From positions 1-27,179 of the IMG/VR virus record IMGVR_UViG_3300030430_004019: DNA of 27,179 bases; one strand, 5' to 3'. This document shows positions 3,961-8,700 of the stretch, one piece after another (the stretch's first letter is position 1; every line of letters starts with the position of its first letter). Made by a program: the position numbers and the translations under genes. The DNA is from a virus. The notes under the pieces were generated by a model. It saw only the letters and a program-made list of their open reading frames with translations, had not been told where the DNA came from and did no database searches.

Positions 3961-3993
3961 AAGCGGGGAGGAGTTTTCCTCCTCGCTTTTTTT
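3961..3993 (+). terminator. Rho-independent terminator after the recombination genes
   Basis: An 11-bp stem, AAGCGGGGAGG (3961-3971) with CCTCCTCGCTT (3978-3988), has one G-T wobble and a 6-base AGTTTT loop, and runs into an uninterrupted T tract ending at 3993. It begins 9 bases after the stop of the preceding gene. The next ATG lies only 3 bases after the T tract. Confidence 0.92.
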
Positions 3994-3996
3994 ACG

Positions 3997-4629
3997 ATGC
4001 CTAGAAATATTAATCTACCAAAAGCCAGGGTCTATATCAGAGAGGATATGTGGGGAGGTTCTCTGCACGCCTTCAAGGAAGCCTGGTTAGTTTCGGTCAG
4101 GGCTCTCAGGGGTAGACCTTTTTGTTTTCAAGTATGGGTGGACGATTGCTGTGCTTGCTACGACAAGGTGCGCCCCGACTGCCTGTATTGGAAGAAACCA
4201 GAGAAGGGGCACGAACCCTACGACCTGGTAGATATTCAAATGTGGGAATGCCTGAGCAATGATATTGAATTATTTCACAAAGCCCAGCTCGCAGATGTCC
4301 CCATGCTGGTCAACATGAGTGACGAAATGCCGCAGGGCAACTATTGGTTCACAATAGATTGCCTCCCAGAAAAACAGTCCCTGGGTTATCTGGATGTAGG
4401 CGATTCCGACATACTGGATGAGCACAAGGAGATGAACGTAGTACGCATGCAGAATGGTCAAATCGCAATATATCCAAATAATAGATTAAAGTGGATTCCT
4501 GAATCCTTGTCCACTGAGGAGGCAATAAAGAAAAAACCTAACTGGAAGGTTGCTGAGAATGCGGTCTGGGACAGGGAATGGTTAGAGCAACCGTATGAAT
4601 TGTACGGAAATTTAGATTGGAGTTATTAG
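3997..4629 (+). CDS. Hypothetical protein, W- and C-containing (210 aa)
   Basis: No family with a known function was recognised. The protein is rich in aromatic residues and has a cysteine group near residues 51-62 (DDCCACYDKVRPDC), followed by YWKKPEKG. A C-terminal module reads NGQIAIYPNNRLKWIPESL and KPNWKVA. No signal peptide or membrane segment is apparent. The ATG at 3997 is just 3 bases beyond the U-tract of the terminator at 3961-3993, leaving no room for a Shine-Dalgarno site outside the hairpin. The next in-frame ATG (4048) follows AGAGAGG closely and is an alternative start that would remove 17 residues. It must be expressed by read-through or by an unseen promoter. Confidence 0.75.
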   Translation: MPRNINLPKARVYIREDMWGGSLHAFKEAWLVSVRALRGRPFCFQVWVDDCCACYDKVRPDCLYWKKPEKGHEPYDLVDIQMWECLSNDIELFHKAQLADVPMLVNMSDEMPQGNYWFTIDCLPEKQSLGYLDVGDSDILDEHKEMNVVRMQNGQIAIYPNNRLKWIPESLSTEEAIKKKPNWKVAENAVWDREWLEQPYELYGNLDWSY

Positions 4630-4630
4630 A

Positions 4631-4843
4631 ATGGATGCTCAAGCAATGCGAAGTTGTATAAAATACTTCGAAAAAGTAACAATGAACGAAATCAAAAAAG
4701 CGCACAGATACGAGGACTGCGACAAAATAGAATTAACCGATTACGCTAAATGCTTAGTAGATAAAAACTCAAAAAGAAAGCGTTCTGGGTTGACAGGATA
4801 CGCGGAATACATTTTAAATAAAAATTGTAACAATAAGATCTAG
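4631..4843 (+). CDS. Small hypothetical protein (70 aa)
   Basis: Last gene of the rightward operon. It starts one base after the previous stop, with GGAG (4618-4621) about 9 bases upstream as a plausible ribosome-binding site. The product is a mixed-charge helical protein with YFEKVTMNEIKKAHRYEDCD, a KRKRSG basic patch and a GYAEYILNKN end. No domain recognised. It is followed by the 140-base convergent junction. Confidence 0.65.
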   Translation: MDAQAMRSCIKYFEKVTMNEIKKAHRYEDCDKIELTDYAKCLVDKNSKRKRSGLTGYAEYILNKNCNNKI

Positions 4844-4850
4844 TATTCGT

Positions 4851-4879
4851 TTTATTGTTCAATACAGTCATAGTATAAA
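4851..4879 (+). promoter_or_regulatory. Possible promoter of the junction RNA
   Basis: TATAAA at 4874-4879 matches 5 of 6 bases of a -10 box. At 17-base spacing the -35 position holds TTTATT (4851-4856), a weak match. Predicted transcription would begin around 4883-4886, exactly where the first stem of the structured element begins. That coincidence is the main support; the region is A/T-rich, so chance is possible. Confidence 0.35.
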
Positions 4880-4882
4880 AGA

Positions 4883-4940
4883 GTGAGGTAAGTCCGAGGG
4901 TAACCGAGGACGGGTATTATTCACCTTGTTTAAGCCTCAC
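4883..4940 (+). ncRNA. Candidate structured RNA (three-way junction) in the convergent junction
   Basis: A 58-base element folds by eye into a three-way junction. The closing stem is GTGAGG (4883-4888) with CCTCAC (4935-4940). The first arm is GTCC (4892-4895) with GGAC (4908-4911), a tandem G-A/G-A step (4896-4897 with 4906-4907), GG/CC, and a GTAA loop (4900-4903), which is a GNRA tetraloop. The second arm is GGT (4913-4915) with ACC (4923-4925), plus a G-T pair. Sheared G-A pairs and a GNRA loop exist only on the + strand; the - strand would have C-T mismatches instead. It is followed within 3 bases by a strong terminator. I could not match it to a known RNA class. No gene lies downstream on this strand, so a trans-acting RNA or 3'-end protective structure is more likely than a riboswitch. 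Confidence 0.45.
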
Positions 4941-4942
4941 GG

Positions 4943-4986
4943 AGCCTTCATCGACTTTTCCTATTTTGTCGGTGGGGGCTTTTTTA
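4943..4986 (+). terminator. Rho-independent terminator of the rightward operon
   Basis: A continuous 13-bp stem (4943-4955 with 4968-4980, including four G-T pairs, so it favours the + strand) closes a 12-base T-rich loop and is followed by a T tract to 4985. It ends the + transcripts just before they would run antisense into the late gene, whose stop codon is at 4984-4986. On the opposite strand the wobble pairs become mismatches and no U-tract follows, so it is not bidirectional. Confidence 0.92.
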
Positions 4987-7900
4987 TAGACTGCGCAGAA
5001 GTCTGCCGACTTCCTTGTTGATAACGCCCTTGCGTTTCATTTCAAAGAATAGAGCCCTGTTCCTGTGCGCTCCCATGCTCTTCAGGACGCGTACGCGCTC
5101 CAGTATGCTCATGTTCATCAGGAGCTTATCCTGAGGCGTTCTACCGCGCTTCTCGTCGTTTATACGGCGATTGTGCTCTCTTTGTAGGGACTCTGCCAGG
5201 AACCTGCTTTGAGCGTCTCCTGCGCGTAATTCACGTATCTCTGCAAGGGTTTCCGCCCTACTCTTACCTTCAGCGATTTCTGTGTACTGCTCTCCTAGGG
5301 TCTTCTGCACTCCGCGTTGGAATGGCTCGAAATCCATGCCCCGAACAATACGGAAGATATCCGTGCTGCGCACTCCAGCTTCACGCAGTAGATTGATGCG
5401 CTCTTCTTCTGTGTAGCCGAATGCCTTCAAGCGTTCGAAAGATTCTGCTATTCTGTTGAAGGACACCTCGGCCTGTTGCACGGCCCGTCGGTAAGATTGC
5501 TCTAATTGGTCTTGGCTTAATTGATCGGCCTTGTATTTGGCGTCAGTAGTGTAGGATCCTCTGGCGTTTGAGTAACCCTGCACGAACTCCTGCACCCTGA
5601 ACTTTGCCATTTGGTTGAAGTCAATTTTGGTCAATCTAGCGCCCATCTGCCGCATAAGTATTTCTTCCATGGAGTAATCCCCGAGCCCCCTGTAAGCCTT
5701 GAATAGCTTTGAACCTTCATTGTAAAAACCAGGTCTGAATGTTTCAAAGACGAACTCCTTGAGTAGTGCTCCAAATTTGGCGGCTCCCTCCTTGTCGGTT
5801 ATGACCTTTCCGTACACGTCCCTGTTGTCCAAGGATCTGTACAAGTTCTGACCAATGAAAGTACCTTCACCTACGAGATTATCTACAACTGCGCCCAGTG
5901 CGCTCTGCACGTTTTTTTCTGCGTCCGCTTCAATGAAAGGATTCTGCGCTTGAGCTATGGCGGACTTCACAAGTCCAGTGAACATAGTATGCGGGAATAG
6001 ATAACTTGTTGCTGCAGAAGTTCCTGTTTTTGTTTTTGGGTTGTAGGTGGCAACGATATCTTGGTTGCGCATGTAACTCGGTGAAAAGAACCTAAAGCTT
6101 TCCATGTCCCTGGGATCTACTCTGTCTCCCGCGTCCCCAGACATCTTTCCGATACGATCTCCAACAAAAGAAGACATTCCAAATGCAAGGCCTATGGTTG
6201 CACCTAAGGCAAGTAATCGCTTGAATCCTTCTGCTCTTAATTGATCCCTGGATGCCTCATTTAATTCAACACCGAACTTCTGCGCGAAGGCATCTCCGTC
6301 TATCATCCTTAATGCATGGTTAATTTGATTTCCTGTATTGCGAGCAAGCTCCAGCGTGAAGGTAACAAATGGAGGTAGTATACCAGCCCTGGATAGTTTC
6401 CTGCCCAGGGACCAGGTTCTGGCGTAGTTCTGGTAGGTGTCGTTGGTTATTTCAGCCGATATCCTTTTTATCTGATCTCTGGTTACGGAAAGAGAATCAC
6501 CTGCATTTAATATGTCAGTTAATCTCTTTTGGTTGTGCTTCCAGATTGTGAATCTAGTAGCGGTATCCGTAATACTATAAAGTTTACCAGCACCTGCAGT
6601 CAGTCCCCTTGCGATATCTCCTAACTGTCCGTTGTTGATTGCATCAGCAACTTCATTCGCAGCTATGGTAGCATTGCCGATTCCGTACTTGTACATCTCA
6701 GCCATATCGTTGGATATTTTTTCTCTGACGGCTGGGTCGCTTATTTTCTTTTGTCCCTTGCTGAGTTTTGCCCCTGAGTTATACAAAGAATGTATTTCTC
6801 TAAAAGCCAGACTTCCGCCTTCTTTATAGTTGGAAATATTACTTAAACTAGGTAATACCCCATTGCTGAACATGGAGGCTTGACCGCCTATAAAATTAAC
6901 CATGTAGGAAGGAGGATTAAATATAACCTTAGCCGCCTTAGAGCCAGTCACTCCAATGCCATAGATCTGAGCGAGGAGATTACTTGCTTCATCTGCGGCC
7001 TGCCTGCTGAAGCCAGTCTCGTACAATCTGCTTATGGCCTTTCCAGCTTCGTAGGGTATGTAGAGTTGATTGCCCTGTGCGTCAGTCCCCCGAGTGTACT
7101 TCGGGCTGAACTCAATGCTGTCTTCAGTTTTAACTGTGCTTATCAGACCAGCCTCTTCTAGTCCCTGCTTCAGTTTTACGTCGGACTCCATGTTAGCTAG
7201 ATGCCTTATGCTATCTCTAATTCTAAATCGGGCCTTCAGTCCACTAGCCAAGAATGCTTGGTCTACCTCTCCGAGGAAGGCCCTTTCTTTTGGTCCAGGG
7301 GCATGCCCATCTATTATCACCTCAAAACGACCAGGTAAAGAAACGAGTAAGTCCGCTTGCTTGCTTCGTCCAGTTCCTTTATCTTTTGCTTTTGCGAACA
7401 TGGACTTGATGTGCTTTAAGTGCCTGTTTGCTACCTTCTCTGCTTTTTCTGGGTCTGTCCCCTGCATGATACGAGAATCAGTAATTTCTTGCAGCACTTC
7501 CTCTTCAGAGACTTTATTCTGTACGAACTCTTTATTTGTGAAGGCTTTGTACTGCTGCGTATCAAATGACCTATGAACCTTCTCTGACAACGGTGCAAGC
7601 CTTTCAAGCACCGCTGCTTTCGCCTCTTCGGGCAAGAACTCAAGTTCATTAGAATTCTCCAGGATGGATTCTATTTCTTTAAGAACTTCTGTTTCTATCT
7701 TCCTGAATGATTGCAAGTCACCAGCGATGCCTTCGTCCAGCAAAGCATCCGAAAGAGGCATGCCGTCCAGGTAGTCATTTATGTCATCAGCTAGGTGCGG
7801 CTTCGCCATGATTGTCTTATCGATTGCATTCTGCAGCCTGGTCGACAGGGCTTCTGCTGATTGGATCCTGTCTGCAAAATTAAGGTAGTCCTCGCGGAAG

Positions 7901-8700
7901 TTGCGCACTCCCTTCAAAGCCTTAGTGGGAGCTATGAAACTTTTTATATCGGACAGCATTCTGGGGACTGGGTTCTGGCTACTTTGCAGTGCCTGCGCTG
8001 TACGCTCCCTGATCATTCTCTCTGCAGTTCTGTCCAGTTGTCTTTGCGTTATGGGTGCACCTACAGCATCCTGCAGTAATGCATTCAGATCTTCCTTGCC
8101 AACCTCTCCCTTCGCTATGATTTCATCAATCTCTTTCGGACTCTTTCCGATCAAAGTAGCAACCTTATCTGCATCCGAGAACTTGTACTGAGCCCTACCT
8201 ACGGCAGTGCCTAACAATCCACCAGTGCCAGCGGCTATGGCTACATCCAGAGGATTGAACTCTTGCTCGTCTATAGCATCTGCTATTGCTCGCTCTGAAC
8301 TCGCAAGAACAGCAGATTTAGCTGCATCTCTTACTACTGGGCTTGTCAACGGAGCCTTCACTCTCGTGAGCATATTGTTGACTACTCCGCCTCCAATCAT
8401 GCGACCTATGCTCAGGTCCTCTGTATCCTTGCCCTCTACCTTTTGAGCCAGTGCACTGCTTGCAGCTCCAGATAGGAACCTACCAAGGAACTGCATTCCT
8501 TGCTTTTTTGCTGCGTCAGGAATCTTTCTTCCTATGGCCTGCGTAAGTATTTCGCCCAGGATATTGCCGCCGATTTCAGTTACAGCAGATCCTGCAATCT
8601 GTGCACCTGTAATATCTGGCTCAAGTACAGTTATATCGTCCTGAAGCGCTGGCAAACCGCGACGTTCGCGCTCTTCTGCGGTGAATTCTCTAACTGCCAT
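4984..8700 (-). CDS. Large internal virion (ejection) protein, putative (1238 aa)
   Basis: The last gene of the late operon encodes a very long, mainly helical protein without a signal peptide. Small-residue and hydrophobic stretches occur near the N-terminus (IAGSAVTEIGGNILGEILTQ, about residues 34-53), around residue 160 (AIAAGTGGLLGTAVG), and near 825-850 (LALGATIGLAFGMSSFVG), typical of proteins ejected from the capsid that must cross a membrane. Long charged helices fill the rest, and the C-terminus is basic (EMKRKGVINKEVGRLLRSL). I see no lysozyme/transglycosylase or RNA-polymerase motif. Position at the end of the morphogenesis operon beside another large helical Ala/Gln-rich protein fits podovirus internal core proteins. 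The ejection function is inferred from size, composition and place, not from a recognised domain. Confidence 0.7.
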   Translation of the reverse strand: MAVREFTAEERERRGLPALQDDITVLEPDITGAQIAGSAVTEIGGNILGEILTQAIGRKIPDAAKKQGMQFLGRFLSGAASSALAQKVEGKDTEDLSIGRMIGGGVVNNMLTRVKAPLTSPVVRDAAKSAVLASSERAIADAIDEQEFNPLDVAIAAGTGGLLGTAVGRAQYKFSDADKVATLIGKSPKEIDEIIAKGEVGKEDLNALLQDAVGAPITQRQLDRTAERMIRERTAQALQSSQNPVPRMLSDIKSFIAPTKALKGVRNFREDYLNFADRIQSAEALSTRLQNAIDKTIMAKPHLADDINDYLDGMPLSDALLDEGIAGDLQSFRKIETEVLKEIESILENSNELEFLPEEAKAAVLERLAPLSEKVHRSFDTQQYKAFTNKEFVQNKVSEEEVLQEITDSRIMQGTDPEKAEKVANRHLKHIKSMFAKAKDKGTGRSKQADLLVSLPGRFEVIIDGHAPGPKERAFLGEVDQAFLASGLKARFRIRDSIRHLANMESDVKLKQGLEEAGLISTVKTEDSIEFSPKYTRGTDAQGNQLYIPYEAGKAISRLYETGFSRQAADEASNLLAQIYGIGVTGSKAAKVIFNPPSYMVNFIGGQASMFSNGVLPSLSNISNYKEGGSLAFREIHSLYNSGAKLSKGQKKISDPAVREKISNDMAEMYKYGIGNATIAANEVADAINNGQLGDIARGLTAGAGKLYSITDTATRFTIWKHNQKRLTDILNAGDSLSVTRDQIKRISAEITNDTYQNYARTWSLGRKLSRAGILPPFVTFTLELARNTGNQINHALRMIDGDAFAQKFGVELNEASRDQLRAEGFKRLLALGATIGLAFGMSSFVGDRIGKMSGDAGDRVDPRDMESFRFFSPSYMRNQDIVATYNPKTKTGTSAATSYLFPHTMFTGLVKSAIAQAQNPFIEADAEKNVQSALGAVVDNLVGEGTFIGQNLYRSLDNRDVYGKVITDKEGAAKFGALLKEFVFETFRPGFYNEGSKLFKAYRGLGDYSMEEILMRQMGARLTKIDFNQMAKFRVQEFVQGYSNARGSYTTDAKYKADQLSQDQLEQSYRRAVQQAEVSFNRIAESFERLKAFGYTEEERINLLREAGVRSTDIFRIVRGMDFEPFQRGVQKTLGEQYTEIAEGKSRAETLAEIRELRAGDAQSRFLAESLQREHNRRINDEKRGRTPQDKLLMNMSILERVRVLKSMGAHRNRALFFEMKRKGVINKEVGRLLRSL

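Follow-up and report, generated by a model that had tools for sequence, protein, structure and literature searches.

A conserved three-way-junction RNA in related phages, usually placed where the early operon ends

Several described RNAs are close enough in form to serve as points of reference for a structured element in a phage genome. The packaging RNA of the phi29 type is a phage RNA based on a three-way junction, and the coat-protein operator of MS2 is a hairpin in which a stem, a 5' single-base bulge and two further pairs lead to an ANYA tetraloop. Candidate structured RNAs from metagenomes were reportedly presented by Weinberg et al. in 2010. Trans-acting small RNAs of phages include PreS/LPR1 of lambda and VpdS of vibriophage VP882, which, in the excerpts of the sources used here, promote phage replication and pair with host mRNAs with the involvement of Hfq (PMC12197685; PMC13250501). 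The phage small RNAs covered in the same excerpt of the review are for the most part individual examples found in laboratory hosts (PMC12197685).

The locus considered here lies on an IMG/VR virus contig of 27 kb, which was analysed over its full length of 27,179 nucleotides and is called the window. An RNA element is found on its + strand between the end of the early genes and the end of the late genes. A preliminary description had proposed an undescribed small RNA at this place, with its own promoter, a three-way junction and a terminator. We regard it as nearly certain that this RNA exists and is conserved.

The RNA and its setting in the window

The early genes of the window run rightward up to 4843 and comprise those for a DnaB-like helicase, endonuclease VII, an Erf annealing protein and a single-strand binding protein, a ferredoxin/PurM-like gene and ORF70. 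The late genes run leftward, and the last of them terminates at 4984. Table 1 lists the features around these converging ends.

Table 1. Features at the junction of early and late genes, in window coordinates
Feature	Position	Strand	Basis and remarks
ORF70, small protein, final early-operon gene	4631-4843	+	ORF list; neighbour 5' of the RNA, kept throughout the window lineage
Candidate promoter TTGACA-N17-TTTAAA, in ORF70 codons	4790-4818	+	Predicted from sequence; weak -10
A+U-rich hairpin AACAAUAA...UUAUUGUU across the ORF70 stop	4829-4859	+	Alignment of relatives
TATAAA box, promoter of the preliminary description	4874-4879	+	Present in the window; not conserved as such
P1 5' strand GUGAGG	4883-4888	+	Fold and alignment; inner GG invariant
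J1/2 UAA	4889-4891	+	Alignment; UAA, UGA or AAA across the family
P2 arm GUCC-GA-GG-GUAA-CC-GA-GGAC	4892-4911	+	Fold and alignment; GA/GA internal loop variable
GNRA tetraloop GUAA of P2	4900-4903	+	Fold and alignment
P3 arm GGGU-AUUAUUC-ACCU, loop AUUAUUC	4912-4926	+	Alignment
J3/1 joining strand, 8 nt	4927-4934	+	Alignment; fourth U and sixth A invariant
P1 3' strand CCUCAC	4935-4940	+	Fold and alignment; inner CC invariant
Intrinsic terminator immediately 3' of P1	4941-4985	+	Fold and terminator scan
Convergent late gene, 1238 aa; stop codon adjoins terminator	4984-8700	-	ORF list and homologs

It was found that positions 4883-4940 form a three-way junction leading into an intrinsic terminator, and the minimum free energy structure was identical to the one proposed in the preliminary description, with every part in its place. 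The energy of the window element was -44.3 kcal/mol (z = -4.64), and none of 200 shuffles was as good. The terminator supplies much of this energy, and chance was therefore assessed through homologs instead. The terminator stem occupies 4941-4982 and the T run 4980-4985; the terminator is present as first described, but the 13 bp given for it was too short, since up to 15 bp can pair.

ORF70 is kept in the relatives L002-L016 and L068, and no PHROGs match to it was found. An LTxYAxxxxxK-like motif occurs twice in it, and the second pair of LT codons is TTGACA, a -35 box. L068 is without the ferredoxin/PurM-like gene (3997-4629 in the window), yet ORF70 and the RNA are retained. A strong terminator is located at 3961-3988, 3' of the gene for the single-strand binding protein, and the ferredoxin-ORF70-RNA segment downstream may thus form a transcription unit of its own. 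The A+U-rich hairpin across the ORF70 stop has changed bases and still forms a hairpin in L065 and L016; it is weak in L002.

A family defined by its junction

The 1238-aa gene has a close relative in nine IMG/VR contigs, all nine of which carry the RNA; L068, a tenth contig, holds just the end of that gene and has the RNA as well. Among the seven nearest relatives compared, identity was 84-100% for the 58-nt junction, 70-95% for ORF70 and 59-100% for the linker. Phage C75C1 (OQ984151) has a late protein of only 27% identity. Its RNA, at 12835-12766 on the minus strand, keeps this layout, and almost all of the stem positions carry other bases (UUUAGG-UAA-GCUGUA(U)GA-GUAA-UCUGCAGC-GGGUCAG...CUGACCU-AAUUGACU-CCUAAA, then a terminator).

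A protein-profile scan gave 50 loci. Those with a late gene 38-47% identical (L078-L091) carry the RNA, and at loci with 23-29% identity a different RNA stands at the same place in some and no RNA was found in others. A pattern scan yielded extra copies of known members, and a second pattern, which targets the bulged form, yielded additional contigs. L030, L031 and the L108-L111 group were picked up with a covariance model, L108-L111 scoring weakly until a second model was built; L030, L031 and L111, all detected by the first model (R1), were absent from its building set. In total, the family numbers about 45 IMG/VR phage contigs and Phage C75C1, a count that is a lower bound and biased toward the search patterns used. 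The carriers are related viruses, mostly marine, and absence of the RNA from a fragmentary contig does not show that the virus lacks it. Each of ten member records searched whole holds a single copy (10/10). With the second model (R2), members scored at least 45.9 bits and everything else at most 16.9 bits, nearly all of the scored members having belonged to its building set. The window sequence (4883-4940), itself a building sequence, scores 74.2 bits with R1 and 67.3 bits with R2, and it has the P1 inner GG/CC, the 3-nt J1/2, the GNRA-capped P2, the P3 and the 8-nt J3/1 with fixed U and A that define the family. A site in L169 that matches the bulged-form pattern was discarded as a chance match.

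Among 84,980 genomes of bacteria and archaea, a pattern scan gave 14 matches, all of which were rejected as chance by their fold (best, 16.9 bits with R2), and R2 found no match over 143 genomes of one class, which is weak evidence because stricter filters were used without a positive control; the bacterial negative thus covers one pattern scan and those 143 genomes. By DNA similarity, the phage collection gave short chance matches only to the window locus, and the sole match to L159 was C75C1. Among named phages reached via neighbour proteins, C75C1 was the sole carrier of the RNA in the matched records examined, which are part of all matches.

The claim that the RNA is undescribed is borne out by Rfam 15, in which no family reaches its gathering score with the window, L072, L165 or further members. 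Around the window site nothing appeared even at E = 10, and the sole gathering match in the member scans was a tRNA elsewhere in L085. The segment GAGGUAAGUCC, which has some resemblance to RNase P, is without an Rfam match, and an RNase P-like identity was rejected.

For comparison of the members, 31 were hand-aligned under guidance of the structure, and each row was checked against its locus. The P1 inner GG/CC is fixed in all 31 rows, J1/2 always measures 3 nt (UAA, UGA or AAA) and J2/3 is absent or a single base. The GNRA loop of the preliminary description recurs in every row, as GUAA but for GUGA in L080/L089. J3/1 has a constant length of 8 nt, in which the fourth base is always U and the sixth always A, and the P3 loop is U-rich, with UUUAUY in most lineages. 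The tandem G-A step that had been singled out in P2 is not conserved: close relatives have A-A/G-A or A-A/A-A, L016 has A-U pairs and a bulged A instead, and distant members have a single bulge. It was ruled out as a family motif by both the close-relative and the 31-row alignments. A loop-loop pairing of GUAA with UUAU was also dropped, as it fits the window and some others and fails in L079-L084.

The compensatory changes that the preliminary description had called for were found, as pairs covary over distant relatives. In a model-fitted alignment, which leans to the model, both sides have changed in 12 of the 15 pairs, the covariation score is 0.674 (0.245 ± 0.021 when shuffled, at most 0.151 when slid) and 92% of cells are paired versus 69% after shuffling. 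When RNAalifold was run unguided on a MAFFT alignment, its consensus showed the same three arms. A phylogeny-preserving null in the manner of R-scape was also applied to the hand alignment through our own implementation, in which inferred column substitutions were placed randomly on the tree in 150 simulations. The top three of all column pairs belong to the structure; E was below the resolution of 150 simulations for P1 3-72, 0.013 for P2 12-29 and 0.06 for P2 13-28, and no pair outside the structure had E < 0.2. The remaining pairs of the structure, those of P3 especially, fell individually short of significance under this null. The base stem of P2 is paired in 123 of 124 cells (its first pair being GC, UA or AU), the third and fourth positions of P1 are paired in 31/31 as GC, AU, UA or CG, and the pair closing the GNRA loop is GC or AU in 31/31. 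Where longer P3 arms occur, their extra pairs are paired wherever they exist. Conservation as coding sequence is excluded by the one-base bulges, the 1-nt indels and loops that vary in length from 6 to 13 nt.

The genomic place of the RNA is also shared. It is flanked by the early operon and an oppositely read, related late gene in the window lineage, L078-L091, C75C1, L159 and L165, the same convergent site being used although the late gene is merely 23-47% identical. In L164 and L158, the late gene could not be linked to the 1238-aa protein by tblastn, which suggests that the RNA goes with the early operon. It had been claimed that no gene lies downstream; this is true of most members and fails in L030/L031, where the RNA follows DnaB-ORF142 and precedes a ferredoxin-like gene. 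In the L108/L111/L157/L164 and L030/L031 lineages, the upstream ORF ends within the RNA and overlaps its 5' half, and in several lineages the stop codon of that ORF is the UAA within the GUAA loop (L111 2641-2662, L031 3881-3902 and similar). Relatives of the ferredoxin-like gene in L033 and L035 finish on a plain terminator without the RNA.

A different conserved RNA was observed at the same junction in L093-L096, L098-L100, L103, L106 and L107, close to where the early operon ends (in L094, for instance, just past 9511 on the minus strand). Its sequence reads GAGUAAGUCGUGAGUGCUYCRG...GUYAGCC...CCACGACGCURAC, in which GUCGUG/CACGAC and GUCAGC/GCUGAC interleave as a pseudoknot. The second of these has undergone a compensatory change to GUUAGC/GCUAAC in L095, L096 and L107. 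No Rfam match at the gathering threshold was obtained for the members scanned.

Terminators and candidate promoters

The terminator is kept across the family, as a simple scan finds one in 29 of the 31 members, the window included; the same scan found no convincing terminator in L031 and L160. The gap between P1 and the terminator is 0-1 nt in nearly all members, 13 nt in L165 and 16 nt in L030.

The promoter assignment fared less well. A sigma-70 scan found none at the TATAAA box, which is replaced by TGTAAT, TGTAAC or AATAAT in some relatives, and the alignment of relatives led to its rejection as the family promoter. A mini-hairpin, CCCUAUCAGGG, stands directly 5' of the junction in most close relatives (L003, L012, L011, L065, L005, L002) and has been lost in the window (4880-4883), so that the spacing from TATAAA to the stem is particular to the window.

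For the more general idea of an own promoter, a candidate pattern exists in the L078-L089 lineage, and a recognisable promoter is not present in every lineage. Most of L078-L089 have TTGACA (TTGACT in two) 33-34 nt before the first aligned P1 base and TAAAAA/TACAAA-like sequences 16-17 nt beyond it, a spacing that would be expected for a transcription start near P1. The pattern is outside any ORF in L078; TTGACA is found at 49 in L082 and is missing from that place in L085, and in other lineages the pattern is absent or shifted. The TTGACA-N17-TTTAAA of the window lineage is identical in all members compared and lies 93-106 nt upstream of the RNA, followed by the A+U-rich hairpin. Most TTGACA copies double as Leu-Thr codons of the upstream ORF. 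The initial interpretation as a whole therefore stands for the undescribed structured RNA, the compensatory changes, the GNRA loop and the terminator, and not for the tandem G-A step and TATAAA.

Possible functions and relation to described RNAs

A covarying family across phages whose late genes are 23-47% identical or unlinked, in most cases placed where the early operon ends, indicates that one particular RNA shape is needed by some phages. With about even confidence, we read it as a phage-encoded structured small RNA that has a conserved three-way-junction fold and acts in trans. Such an RNA would be its own short transcript or would arise by cleavage or termination at the 3' end of the early replication operon, with its own 3' end set by the terminator adjoining the closing stem. 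It would act by binding a phage or host protein, and the U-rich P3 loop, which is exposed, would offer a second contact; compared with protein binding, pairing to one fixed phage mRNA seems disfavoured. The arms are free to change while the junction nucleotides, the GNRA loop and the joining strand are fixed, which suggests that the folded core is selected, and it is for this reason that trans action via protein binding is proposed. Judging from this conservation pattern, the folded core is probably the functional part and bound by protein. In C75C1 and the window, pairing of the P3 loop, joining strand and linker with phage translation starts was not enriched, which leaves the trans idea without direct target support; the pairing partner may be a host mRNA. 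The placement of the RNA before a gene in L030/L031 counts against a stand-alone or 3'-UTR small RNA. A further suggestion, made tentatively, is that of a new class of small phage RNA with a protein- or ligand-binding junction core, which would be produced as early transcription ends and would alter a host or phage machine such as the polymerase, ribosome, an RNase or a defence protein. Since the complete deposited genome of C75C1 carries the RNA, its role is directly testable.

The main alternative, possible if doubtful, is a cis-acting 3'-end element that shields the early-operon mRNA from 3'-to-5' exonucleases or boosts termination before the late genes. The location 3' of the early genes, the directly adjoining terminator of most members, the convergent late operon behind and the overlap with the upstream ORF in several lineages all agree with this. 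The overlap itself is equally compatible with a 3'-UTR element and with a separate RNA. However, L033 and L035 make do with a plain strong terminator at their comparable junction, and protection needs neither invariant single-stranded nucleotides nor a GNRA loop. In addition, the terminator-like hairpin is at least 13 nt off in L165, L030 and L031, and the promoter pattern of L078-L089 is aimed at P1.

A ligand-sensing, riboswitch-like attenuator, in which the junction would bind a small molecule and so set the adjoining terminator, is improbable. A conserved core with variable arms and a terminator alongside has the look of an aptamer and expression platform, and in L030/L031 the RNA is indeed upstream of the ferredoxin-like gene. 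With that exception, the RNA is not the 5' leader of a regulated gene in the window or most members, where downstream there is no sense gene, just late-gene antisense. P1 and the terminator share no bases, so that alternative pairing is not evident, and no Rfam riboswitch matches.

A role in replication or packaging, as a primer, origin RNA or analogue of the phi29 packaging RNA, is very improbable. The three-way junction, the single copy per genome and the adjacent replication genes of most lineages would suit it, but no Rfam match and no terminase neighbour were seen, and a primer is less probable given the strong terminator. The skew change at the site tracks gene direction alone, and skew was set aside as uninformative for an origin. 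That there is no functional RNA, the sequence being kept by chance or shared descent around a terminator, is barely credible: terminators by themselves yield a good fold z-score, but this reading is contradicted by covariation beyond the tree-preserving null, by arms rewritten across lineages with late genes 23-47% identical and by the 1-nt indels.

Compared with the systems described above, the trans-acting RNA that we favour has partial likenesses to each. It has the three-way junction in common with the phi29-type packaging RNA and differs in its other arms, its site of early/late convergence and its lack of an Rfam match. The bulged form of P2 shows the same order of stem, 5' single-base bulge, two pairs and tetraloop as the MS2 operator, which is a lead only; unlike that operator, the family has a GNRA rather than an ANYA loop, and its hairpin is embedded in a junction. 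Like the candidates of Weinberg et al. 2010, it is a structured RNA of unknown function, mainly on metagenomic contigs; it is set apart from them in that no Rfam 15 family matches its members at the gathering score. It would resemble PreS and VpdS, as excerpted here, in being a short RNA encoded by the phage genome. The descriptions of PreS and VpdS in these excerpts are not of families held together by covarying structure, whereas here the junction core is conserved across very distant phages.
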